Shown here in pieces: positions 8,698 to 16,139 of a stretch of 34,249 nt of DNA. The position numbers were made by a program, and so were the translations under genes. The stretch covers positions 1 to 34,249 of the IMG/VR virus record IMGVR_UViG_3300032241_001567; one strand, given 5' to 3'. The notes under the pieces were generated by a model. It made no database searches and was not told the origin of the DNA. It saw only the letters and a list, made by a program, of their open reading frames with translations. Every line of letters starts with the position of its first letter. Within the stretch, counting starts at the first letter, position 1. Source of the DNA: a virus.

Positions 8698-8922
8698 TTA
8701 ATTGTTTGAATTTAACTTGTCCACGATTTTTTGAATGGAGGCAAGCGATACCGGATAATTAGCCATCACCAAATTCAGCGTATTACGTTGAATGCCAAAG
8801 TGTTCGGCTGCATCGGTAAAAGAGTGGAAGCTGTCAACGGCTTTCGTAAAAGCCTTGTGGTCTGTCTTCGACAATGTTACATGTCGCTTGTTTCTTTGAG
8901 GTTTAACTGCTGTTGTATTCAT
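8698..8922 (-). CDS. Cro-like small DNA-binding protein, 74 aa
   Basis: The frame starts at the ATG at 8922. Upstream in-frame codons would run into the promoter and the divergent repressor gene, so the longer reading is rejected. The product begins with a basic tail (MNTTAVKPQRNKRHVTLSK). A helix-turn-helix-like segment follows, SFHSFTDAAEHFGIQRNTLNL (residues about 33-53), in which the turn and recognition helix are plausible. As first gene of the early operon and divergent from the CI-type repressor, it sits where Cro sits in lambdoid phages and may bind the operator at 8982-8994. The assignment rests on position and fold and is not a family match. Confidence 0.65.
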   Translation of the reverse strand: MNTTAVKPQRNKRHVTLSKTDHKAFTKAVDSFHSFTDAAEHFGIQRNTLNLVMANYPVSLASIQKIVDKLNSNN

Positions 8923-8969
8923 TTTGTGCTTATTTTTGTACTTCAATTGTGTTTGAAACGATTGTGATG

Positions 8970-9001
8970 CAAAGTAAACAAATGTCGCTGACATAAACAA
9001 A
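8970..9001 (-). promoter_or_regulatory. early promoter of the minus-strand operon
   Basis: Read on the minus strand, TTTG (9001-8998) is followed after 20 bases by TTACTTTG (8977-8970), one mismatch from the Bacteroidota -7 element TAnnTTTG and with the usual spacing. Transcription would begin about 40 bases before the ATG at 8922. The palindrome at 8982-8994 lies between the two elements, where a bound repressor would block the polymerase. Confidence 0.5.
8982..8994. promoter_or_regulatory. operator-like palindrome ATGTC-GCT-GACAT
   Basis: This perfect 5-bp inverted repeat around a 3-base centre lies in the spacer of the early promoter, 44 bases upstream of the repressor start and 60 bases upstream of the Cro-like start. 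The position suits a binding site for the repressor encoded at 9038-9745, the Cro-like protein, or both in competition. Confidence 0.5.
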
Positions 9002-9037
9002 GATGTTTCAGACTTTTTAAAGATAATTTTAACTGCG

Positions 9038-9745
9038 ATGAATAACTTATTGATAGATAAAGTATCAAGCGGTATTTTAAAACCCGTAATTGATGGATTA
9101 GGGTTGAGCACCAATGAATTTGAGAGACAAATCGGTGTTAGTTATTCATCAATCGCTACTGCCATAAGGAGAGGAACTGCAATAAAGTCTGAAACATCTA
9201 AAAGAATATTGAAGACATTCCCACAAATAAACCCTAAATACCTTGAAACAGGCATCGGCAGTATGTTTATAAATGAACAAACCCCGTCCAAATCAATACC
9301 GGTACTCGGTGATGCAGTAGCAGGTACTAATCAGCAATTGATATACAATGATACCCGACATGAACAGTCAGAACGTATAGACGTGGGCGACCTTTTGCGC
9401 GATTCAGAGGCGGCTTTTACGGTATTTGGCAACAGTATGGTTCCATCATATCCATCAGGCTGTCTTTTGGGTATAAGGCGTAACTATGATGGGTTTATTC
9501 AGCCCGGCGAGACTTATGTGATAGTAACCAAGTCAAACAGGGTATTTAAGAGATTATACAATACAGATGACCTCGGCGCCTATGAATGCTTTTCAGATAA
9601 TGTAATGGTTCACGAAAGCGGGGCATTGAAAGGCAAGTATTTTTATCCTCCGTTTAAAATCCCGAAAGATGATGTGATAGAAATTTGGGATGTAGTTGGA
9701 ATGATAAGGCGTAACCGTAATTCAATGATTTTAAATAGAATGTAA
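9038..9745 (+). CDS. phage repressor, LexA/CI type with S24 peptidase domain, 235 aa
   Basis: This is the lysogeny repressor. The N-terminal XRE-like helix-turn-helix (about residues 15-60; NEFERQIGVSYSSIATAIRRG) binds operators. The C-terminal S24 peptidase domain (about 85-225) has the catalytic serine in FGNSMVPSYPSG (Ser133) and the lysine in VFKRL (Lys171). A candidate self-cleavage bond, Ala95-Gly96, lies in LGDAVAGT. These three features predict RecA-stimulated self-cleavage and SOS induction of the phage. The gene is divergent from the early operon and overlooks the palindrome at 8982-8994, its likely operator. The product lacks nothing essential, so the lysogenic switch appears intact. 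Confidence 0.9.
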   Translation: MNNLLIDKVSSGILKPVIDGLGLSTNEFERQIGVSYSSIATAIRRGTAIKSETSKRILKTFPQINPKYLETGIGSMFINEQTPSKSIPVLGDAVAGTNQQLIYNDTRHEQSERIDVGDLLRDSEAAFTVFGNSMVPSYPSGCLLGIRRNYDGFIQPGETYVIVTKSNRVFKRLYNTDDLGAYECFSDNVMVHESGALKGKYFYPPFKIPKDDVIEIWDVVGMIRRNRNSMILNRM

Positions 9746-9990: not shown

Positions 9991-10329
9991 ATGCAAACAC
10001 AGGATGAATTTCGCAACAGATTTATAAATGCCATTCGTAATGTAGTGGCAGACCCTAAATTTACAGAGACAACAGAGGGTGACGTAGCTATTAAAATCGG
10101 GATGCGGGCAAGTGTACTATCCCGGATAAAAAGTCATCACGGAATGCCGACACCTGAACAGATACTATTACTTTGCTCGGAATTTAATATAGCGCCGGAT
10201 TATTTATTACTCGGAATTGGTGAGGTATTTCGCAGCCATCAATTGAGTGTAGGTCAGCGATTAGAAAGACTTGAAGATGAAATTATAAAGCTGAAAAGAA
10301 TAAAAATACCGGCAGCCATTACCGGTTAA
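9991..10329 (+). CDS. XRE-like helix-turn-helix regulator, 112 aa
   Basis: This 112-residue protein has an XRE-type DNA-binding domain at about residues 28-72 (VAIKIGMRASVLSRIKSHHG, followed by TPEQILLLCSEFNIAPDYLLLG, a typical closing helix). A short coiled coil near residues 84-105 is likely to dimerise. It lies 7 bases after the lipoprotein gene in the same transcription unit as the repressor, and its last codons overlap the left integrase arm-type repeat. It may act on integrase or on the same operators as the repressor; the sequence does not say which. Confidence 0.78.
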   Translation: MQTQDEFRNRFINAIRNVVADPKFTETTEGDVAIKIGMRASVLSRIKSHHGMPTPEQILLLCSEFNIAPDYLLLGIGEVFRSHQLSVGQRLERLEDEIIKLKRIKIPAAITG

Positions 10330-10345
10330 CGCAACCGCTAACACC
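10323..10345 (+). repeat. integrase arm-type repeat, left copy
   Basis: The sequence CGGTTAACG-caac-CGCTAACACC matches the right copy at 10542-10564 at 19 of 23 positions; only the four central bases differ. It overlaps the stop codon of the 112-residue regulator and lies about 80 bases left of the tRNA-derived core. The halves form an imperfect inverted repeat of GTTARCG. It is a candidate site for the integrase N-terminal domain. Confidence 0.6.
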
Positions 10346-10380
10346 ACCCTACTAGTTTGACAAAAATAAATACTGCAATT

Positions 10381-10395
10381 TATTGATAATCAATA
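10381..10395. promoter_or_regulatory. 15-bp palindrome TATTGATAATCAATA in attP
   Basis: This perfect inverted repeat (7 bp on each side of one central A) lies in the AT-rich segment between the left arm repeat and the tRNA-derived core. It could bind a DNA-bending protein or excision factor, or act as an operator. The sequence shows the symmetry but no partner. Confidence 0.35.
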
Positions 10396-10427
10396 CAATA
10401 AATAATGCTATCCCACTAAAAAACATT

Positions 10428-10469
10428 TTCCCAAGCTGAGGGTCGCGGGTTCGAGTCTCGTCTTCCGCT
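10428..10469 (+). other. attP core: 3' half of tRNA-Gly(CCC)
   Basis: The 42 bases copy a tRNA from the anticodon loop to the discriminator base. They comprise the loop TTCCCAA (anticodon CCC at 10430-10432), stem strand GCTGA, variable loop GGGTC, T arm GCGGG-TTCGAGT-CTCGT, acceptor strand CTTCCGC and discriminator T, the base usual for tRNA-Gly. The 5' half is absent, so it cannot fold into a tRNA. Such a fragment is the hallmark of an attachment site: on integration it replaces and restores the 3' end of the host tRNA-Gly gene. The integrase gene starts about 100 bases downstream. Confidence 0.85.
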
Positions 10470-10541
10470 CTTAACTAAAATGTTTAAAATCAATAAGTTA
10501 TAAAATCAACTACCCCACTAAGACCCTCATCATAAGCACAA

Positions 10542-10564
10542 CGGTTAACGATTTCGCTAACACC
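10542..10564 (+). repeat. integrase arm-type repeat, right copy
   Basis: The sequence CGGTTAACG-attt-CGCTAACACC is the partner of 10323-10345, in the same orientation, 219 bases away and about 72 bases right of the tRNA-derived core. It ends one base before the integrase ATG, so integrase bound here could also limit its own expression. A second shared element, CCCACTAA, occurs at 10412 and 10514, again one on each side of the core. Confidence 0.6.
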
Positions 10565-10565
10565 T

Positions 10566-11765
10566 ATGATAAAACTTGCCAACAATTGCTATTGCTCGGA
10601 TATAGCCGTTTCCCCTAAAAACTGGCAGAACAAAAACGTCTCGATCAAAAAGGCATGGTTCATTCACTTTCGGTTTTATGACCCGCTATTTAGGAAGGAA
10701 TGGCCGAATGGCATGCAACGGATTTACAAAAACGACATAAACAAGTTTAAGACCATTGAATCCCGACAAGCTGCCGTAAGGGAAACAATCAACTTTTACC
10801 GGTCACTACTGATAGACGCGAATTGGAATCCGATCACCGACACGATGGATGACCCAATCGCCCGACCACAGGAATACATCATCAGCCCCGGCGCAGGCTT
10901 TATAAATGCACTCGATGCAGCATTTGAACGGATGGACTTATCCACCCACACAAAGGAGGATATGCGCTCAGTGTTGAAATACACAAAGCAAGCCATCAAA
11001 CAATTACGGTTAGACTATCAGGCTATATCTGATGTTAAGCGGAGGCATATAATAGCTATACTCGATCAGATCGGGCGTAACAATAAGACATTTACACCTA
11101 AACGGTATAATGTGTACCGGAAGTACCTATCTGCTATATTTCGCGTTCTAATGGAGCTGGAAGCCATAGAGATAAACCCGATACCGGCTATTCCCCGAAA
11201 AAAAACAGATCCGACACCTCCCAAAACCCTACTCACCCAGTCCGACATCACCAAGATACACACGCTAAAAGACACGAATTACCCATTTTATAGGCTGATA
11301 CTGATGTTTTATTCAAGTGGGGCAAGGACGACCGAAATAATGAATATCAGGCGGGATGACGTGGATTTAATCAATCAGTTAGTTACCTACAAAGTCAATA
11401 AAGGCAAAGCTCGTTATGTAAAGCGGGCAATACCTGACACCTACCTACATTTATGGGCTGAAATTATTGGGGAGTGTTCGGGCAATCAATATCTATTCGG
11501 GGATGGCTTGAAACCTGCCGACAAACCTATCAGAGTTGACCAAGTGAAAAGGCGTTGGGCGTTATGGGTTCAAAAGGGACTGGGTATAAAAGCCACATGG
11601 TACAGTTTGAAGCATCTGTACACCGACAATCTCGCTGCGATCTATGGTACTGCTATCCCTGCACATCTGAACGCTCACGATATAGCGATGACTGAACGGC
11701 ATTATGCGGTCAACGAGGGTGAAAGGAAAAATGAGATATTGAAACGGGCAAATGTGAAATTCTAA
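10566..11765 (+). CDS. int: tyrosine-family phage integrase, 399 aa
   Basis: This site-specific recombinase integrates and, with helpers, excises the phage. Residues 110-205 form the SAM-like core-binding domain, and residues 225-390 the catalytic domain. Catalytic positions visible are Arg254 in SSGARTTEI, box II YSLKH (Lys349, His350), His371 in NAHDIAMTE and the nucleophile Tyr380 in ERHYAV. In box II the usual HxLRH reads YxLKH, a variation common in Bacteroidota integrases and not a sign of inactivity. The N-terminal 100 residues probably bind the arm-type repeats. The gene lies directly after attP. Length is typical (350-420). Confidence 0.93.
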   Translation: MIKLANNCYCSDIAVSPKNWQNKNVSIKKAWFIHFRFYDPLFRKEWPNGMQRIYKNDINKFKTIESRQAAVRETINFYRSLLIDANWNPITDTMDDPIARPQEYIISPGAGFINALDAAFERMDLSTHTKEDMRSVLKYTKQAIKQLRLDYQAISDVKRRHIIAILDQIGRNNKTFTPKRYNVYRKYLSAIFRVLMELEAIEINPIPAIPRKKTDPTPPKTLLTQSDITKIHTLKDTNYPFYRLILMFYSSGARTTEIMNIRRDDVDLINQLVTYKVNKGKARYVKRAIPDTYLHLWAEIIGECSGNQYLFGDGLKPADKPIRVDQVKRRWALWVQKGLGIKATWYSLKHLYTDNLAAIYGTAIPAHLNAHDIAMTERHYAVNEGERKNEILKRANVKF

Positions 11766-16050: not shown

Positions 16051-16123
16051 TGTGGGTTAGAGCAGTGGTTAGCTCGCTGGCCTCATAAGTCAGAAGTCAC
16101 AAGTTCGAATCTTGTACCCGCTA
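16051..16123 (+). tRNA. phage-encoded tRNA, anticodon CAT (Met or Ile2)
   Basis: A full cloverleaf can be folded: acceptor TGTGGGT / ACCCGCT, D arm GAGC-AGTGGTTA-GCTC, anticodon arm CTGGC-CTCATAA-GTCAG (anticodon CAT at 16084-16086), five-base variable loop, and T arm ACAAG-TTCGAAT-CTTGT with five perfect pairs. The first acceptor pair is T-T, a mismatch, and one G-T wobble is present. The anticodon stem lacks the three G-C pairs of an initiator, so it is an elongator Met tRNA or, if C34 is lysidine-modified, an AUA-reading Ile tRNA. CCA is not encoded after the discriminator A. Confidence 0.85.
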
Positions 16124-16139
16124 CAATATAGTACATAAT

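Follow-up and report, generated by a model that had tools for sequence, protein, structure and literature searches.

The arm sites of Bacteroidota phage integrases have been little mapped in the open literature that we searched. The window analyzed here (i.e., the whole stretch of 34,249 nucleotides of viral DNA from IMG/VR record IMGVR_UViG_3300032241_001567) contains a pair of repeats, a partial tRNA sequence, and a tyrosine integrase gene (int) in close succession (Table 1). This arrangement raises the question of whether the locus is a complete phage attachment site (attP) and, if so, which of its elements the integrase would recognize. A first-pass annotation had read it as such a site, and this reading is supported by the tRNA core, the conserved layout of the arms, the matching of arm units, and a relative found in the same core. 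Judged from these sequence comparisons, the locus is very probably a complete attP of the lambda type, belonging to a temperate phage of Bacteroidota, with paired arm sites and a tRNA-Gly(CCC) core.

Table 1. Features in and around the predicted attP (window positions)
Feature	Positions	Strand	Remarks
HTH-like regulator ORF, 112 aa	9991..10329	+	PHROG transcriptional regulator match; stop codon inside left arm repeat
Left arm, tandem pair of predicted arm-type units GTTAACGC (10325) and GCTAACAC (10337), period 12	10323..10345	+	Kept in 15 relatives
Perfect IHF consensus TATCAATAAATTG	10376..10388	-	Overlaps palindrome 10381-10395
IHF-like match, 1 mismatch, AATCAATACAATA	10389..10401	+	Includes right half of palindrome
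attP core	10428..10470	+	tRNA-Gly(CCC) 3' part, anticodon loop to discriminator base, and 1 further base
Predicted 7-bp crossover region TTCCCAA (anticodon loop)	10428..10434	+	Left limit of attP/attB identity
Perfect IHF consensus AATCAATAAGTTA	10488..10500	+	Mirror partner of left site; coincides with an inverted repeat
Weak inverted repeat ATCATA (10529-10534)/TATGAT (10565-10570)	10529..10570	+	Encloses right arm pair; right half over int ATG
Right arm, tandem pair of predicted arm-type units GGTTAACG and CGCTAACA, period 12	10542..10564	+	Ends one base before int (ATG at 10566)
Tyrosine integrase, 399 aa	10566..11765	+	PHROG integrase, E = 2e-25; Pfam PF00589 domain just under cutoff

The core corresponds to the 3' part of a host tRNA-Gly(CCC)

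A search for tRNA-Gly(CCC) genes sharing the 42-base 3' half that had been proposed at 10428-10469 returned 12 exact matches (42/42 identity), all in contigs of Bacteroidota metagenome-assembled genomes (MAGs), and ARAGORN detected a complete tRNA-Gly(CCC) gene in 8 of these contigs. The locus thus combines a core equal to the 3' part of a host tRNA with an adjoining tyrosine integrase gene, as in tRNA-targeting attP sites, and attL/attR junctions of the same kind were found in integrated relatives. Neither the exact core nor the arm pattern occurred in the viral_contigs set. Because the attP is intact in a virus record, the sequenced DNA was presumably in a non-integrated form.

The first base of the anticodon loop (TTCCCAA) is exactly where the identity with the tRNA starts. 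Among relatives with mapped attL and attR, identity blocks nearly always run from the anticodon loop, or from a few bases before it, to the 3' end of the tRNA; the exceptions are L044, in which the block begins in the T arm, and L027, in which the longest block begins further upstream. Since the blocks start at or just before this loop, the crossover most likely sits within it, as far as the junction sequences indicate.

Several other features of the tRNA loci were observed. At many of the attL loci L023 to L049, the restored tRNA is followed directly by a terminator-like GC stem and a T-run. A GTAAGGGTTTC-type element is shared at those loci and also lies left of the core in several attR sites; the window has no terminator-like feature. 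In genome G079 (L090 to L093; integrase of L040), the region upstream of int, on a large chromosomal contig, contains the 3' part of a tRNA-Lys but not the 5' part, and another copy of the tRNA-Lys core is located ~56 kb away, possibly reflecting tandem or displaced elements. The window also carries a phage-borne tRNA-Met(CAT) at 16051-16124 (ARAGORN), between genes downstream of the terminase.

Paired 12-bp-spaced units flank the core across the integrase family

The two 23-base repeats described in the first-pass annotation were correct in their coordinates, their identity (19/23), and their distances from the core (82 nt on the left and 72 nt on the right). With up to 3 mismatches, the pattern CGGTTAACG-N4-CGCTAACACC had no match in the 34 kb apart from these two, with 0 occurrences expected in shuffled sequence. 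The repeats do flank the core as claimed, but each consists of two ~8-nt units, repeated in tandem every 12 bp, rather than one 23-nt site. The left and right arms of the window agree at all 16 unit positions (16/16).

The same design recurs in the relatives of the integrase. When the ~100 nt preceding int were compared in 32 loci, the highest-scoring tandem repeat had a period of exactly 12 bp in 29 of them. The right pair of the window is more degenerate and is not the top-scoring repeat before its int, but it is the repeat that recurs in both arms. Downstream DNA of the integrase loci was retrieved to locate the other junction; in all 15 relatives with a readable left side (i.e., 13 integrated relatives, the G004 element, and the free phage phi46:1), a left pair in the same orientation as the right pair lies 91 to 122 nt left of the core. 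The presence of arm-type repeats to the left and right of the core is therefore conserved together with the integrase, and the expectation that they would be kept in relatives with the same integrase type while their spacers vary was borne out in both arms.

The unit sequence varies by element (GTTAACA, GTAACAC, GTCAACG, CATCACA, CGGAACA, TTTGAACA, and others). Within an element, left and right units match at a mean of 14.0 of 16 positions, versus 10.2 for swapped elements (permutation P < 5e-5); right-arm units were chosen by eye and left arms by best match, and it is the shuffle and swap controls that carry weight in this comparison. Individual elements depart from or exemplify this pattern: the left pair of L025 is weak (10/16; P = 0.34); the L029 element (attR L088, genome G097) is only ~11 kb long and has a left arm of about six arrayed 12-bp units (GCTAACAAAAAA); and the G004 element shares the window's tRNA-Gly(CCC) core at both its attL (L017) and its attR (L006), with matching CTTTGAACA pairs. 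Such within-element matching would be expected if the integrase of each element read its own sites through its N-terminal domain.

An HTH gene lies beside attR or the left arm in some relatives but not in all. A universal partnership of this gene with the left arm, as a candidate excision factor, was rejected because the gene is missing in some relatives. Further upstream, an ORF at 8698-9114 on the minus strand gave a subthreshold match to NUMOD1, a domain often associated with homing endonucleases, and overlaps the beginning of the oppositely oriented repressor gene.

Predicted bending sites lie between the arms and the core

The 15-bp palindrome TATTGATAATCAATA noted at 10381-10395 is present and can be refined to 7-bp arms with an unpaired center. 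Matches to the integration host factor (IHF) consensus lie on both sides of the core (Table 1). Across the family, perfect matches numbered 6 in 16 elements left of the core (0.22 expected) and 3 in 29 loci right of it (0.30 expected), with many relatives having none; phi46:1 has one on each side, mirrored as in the window. Predicted IHF/HU-type bending sites between arms and core, as recognized by consensus, are thus enriched in the family and not universal.

Two minor repeats had also been pointed out. The repeat shared by both sides, CCCACTAA, does occur twice in the window (11/12 when extended). The inverted repeat AAACATTTT/AAAATGTTT likewise flanks the core, but it did not exceed swapped controls in 16 elements (P = 0.24); it is not a feature of the family, is probably incidental, and was rejected as a functional feature. 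In 240 nt of AT-rich sequence, by a rough estimate, neither of the two clearly exceeds what chance would produce.

The integrase, its relatives, and the likely host

Relatives of the integrase share ~30 to 47% identity with it and use many tRNA targets; in most cases, a tRNA gene (for Arg, Asn, His, Lys, Met, Val, Phe, Ala, or Gly) precedes the integrase gene by ~100 nt in the same orientation. Homologues were identified in 27 of the 296 genomes of the bacterial family of G009 (E ≤ 1e-20); broader sampling of the order and class to which G009 belongs yielded few (E ≤ 1e-30). A search of viral_contigs with the single integrase protein detected no relatives. The nearest homologue (47%) comes from genome G182. 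Of the 12 genomes carrying the exact core, 6 belong to the same genus as G182, and on these two grounds the phage host is likely to belong in or near this genus.

The ~100 N-terminal residues of the integrase are conserved in the family, and none of the Pfam arm-binding domain models clearly matched this region. A single-sequence AlphaFold model of the integrase had a pLDDT of 34 and was unusable. Alignment assigned R254, K279, Y346, K349, H371, and Y380 to the active site. The full RKHRH + Y catalytic set is not present: R254, K279, H371, and Y380 are kept, and Y346 and K349 fall where the usual catalytic His and second Arg stand in solved recombinases. The box (window 11601-11612; Y346 to K349) therefore reads YxxK in place of HxxR, as it does in all 34 readable family rows (drawn from L015 to L049, L102 to L104, and L002), and Arg I, the Lys, the second His, and the Tyr nucleophile are mostly kept in the family. 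A survey of tyrosine recombinases describes a His-to-Tyr change in one small Desulfovibrio group, and its main text makes no mention of a Lys at the second Arg (PMC8138268).

A possible mechanism and the control of int

The mechanism that we infer, which extends to protein binding, the exact crossover point, IHF-type bending, and autoregulation, would proceed as follows. Integrase monomers would place their N-terminal domains on the paired arm units and their core-binding and catalytic domains on the tRNA-derived core, while an IHF/HU-type bending protein at the two mirror sites would fold the DNA so that the arms reach back to the core. The phage would be inserted by crossover within the host tRNA-Gly(CCC) gene, at its anticodon loop, and the phage-borne 3' part would restore the tRNA upon insertion. 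Once inserted, the order would be tRNA, right arm, and int, so that integrase bound at the right pair would probably cover the int start region and lower its own expression.

The right pair sits a few tens of nucleotides from the int start throughout the family. A scan of 10200-10700 for sigma-70-type promoters found none; promoters of Bacteroidota differ from this type. In E. coli prophages with the same tRNA-to-int layout (KplE1), the integrase is negatively autoregulated (PMC2951348), and this shared layout makes it plausible that the window integrase likewise lowers its own expression via the right arm.

The DNA around the right pair may offer a second route to control. In the family, the native flanks of the right pair pair better with each other than swapped flanks do (mean, 6.9 versus 5.1; 32 loci; permutation P < 5e-5), whereas the effect at the left pair is only marginal (P = 0.045). 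A locus-specific inverted repeat (often GTAGCATTTT...AAAATGCTAC), which encloses the right pair and ends at the int ATG, was found in L023, L028, L034, L035, L042, L043, L049, and others. This repeat may be an RNA hairpin guarding the int start codon, a lead at the level of the family rather than one established for the window phage.

One could then suppose that the right pair controls int mainly through a surrounding RNA hairpin, which would mask the start codon of read-through transcripts, and that integrase binding has no part in expression. The position of the inverted repeat, the lack of a comparable one at the left pair, and the fold z scores of seven relatives (about -3 to -5) speak for this account of control; those seven were picked among the stronger stems, however, and the window stem has 6 bp and is no more stable than shuffled sequence (z, 0.02), its inverted repeat being not significant. 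We regard this account as unlikely. A broader suggestion is that a hairpin conserved in pairing, not in sequence, encloses the right pair and reaches the int start codon, making a single 60-nt element both a recombination arm and a brake on integrase production from transcripts that read through from the host tRNA, in a family that works with YxxK for HxxR; we put this forward tentatively, as an idea that we would sooner doubt than adopt.

As for the repeats themselves, reading them as operators of a phage repressor (S24/CI-like, 9038-9745, or the HTH protein, 9991-10329) instead of arm sites would fit the repressor-like genes directly upstream and the operator-like position of the right repeat next to a gene start. 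The pairs, however, lie beside the core at either end of integrated elements, are asymmetric direct repeats rather than palindromes, and track the integrase family into elements with no obvious HTH gene by the left arm (L028, L029, L034, L035, and L040), which makes the operator reading very improbable. The missing 5' part might suggest that the core is a tRNA fragment that has decayed or arisen by accident, not a working attachment site. This is hardly credible: the core is 42/42 identical to host genes and adjoins int, and relatives whose attL and attR were mapped show an identical layout.

Comparison with known attachment sites

Read as an attP, the locus can be set beside several characterized systems. 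As in lambda, where IHF sites between the arm and core sites bend the arms back, arm-type sites lie on both sides, IHF-type sites lie between, and the core is at the crossover, and a heterobivalent tyrosine integrase is assumed (PMC4880445). Unlike lambda, the window has symmetric tandem pairs with a 12-bp period, a tRNA core, and YxxK for HxxR, and no Xis or Fis sites were identified in its attP.

A precedent in arrangement comes from the mycobacteriophages L5, Giles, CrimD, and Pixie, in whose attP sites, located upstream of int, a tRNA- or tmRNA-derived core is flanked on each side by pairs of arm sites; the pairs of L5 and Giles are in direct orientation, and the arm unit sequence varies among related integrases, as in the window family (PMC3203893). 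The window differs from them in phylum and integrase, in having the right pair directly at the int ATG, and in a 12-bp period kept across a divergent family. Because paired direct arm sites around such cores are known from these phages, the window attP belongs to a kind that is broadly known. The comparative evidence for it is unusually clean, and its family shows two peculiarities, the inverted repeat at the start codon and the YxxK box.

In KplE1 (argW-intS), the tRNA and int also follow each other in the same direction, attL overlaps the region upstream of int, and integrase sites precede the integrase's own gene; autoregulation was shown by experiment there, whereas for the window it is suggested by the layout (PMC2951348). 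Integrases of the IntCTnDOT class are likewise Bacteroidota tyrosine recombinases and are described as having an arm-binding domain; this group varies in the first catalytic Arg, whereas the window integrase keeps Arg I and has YxxK at the His/second Arg box (PMC8138268). Finally, Cellulophaga phage phi46:1 (NC_021800), a free phage with a homologous integrase (34%), has the intact design, with the same order of arm pair, IHF consensus, tRNA core (tRNA-Phe), IHF consensus, arm pair, and int; its attP is unannotated in NC_021800.

Two units spaced by 12 bp on each side, matched within an element and varying between elements, make arm sites readable from sequence throughout this family and across many tRNA targets. 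The code of arm recognition and the question of autoregulation thereby become directly testable, and an attP design becomes available for integrative vectors in Bacteroidota.
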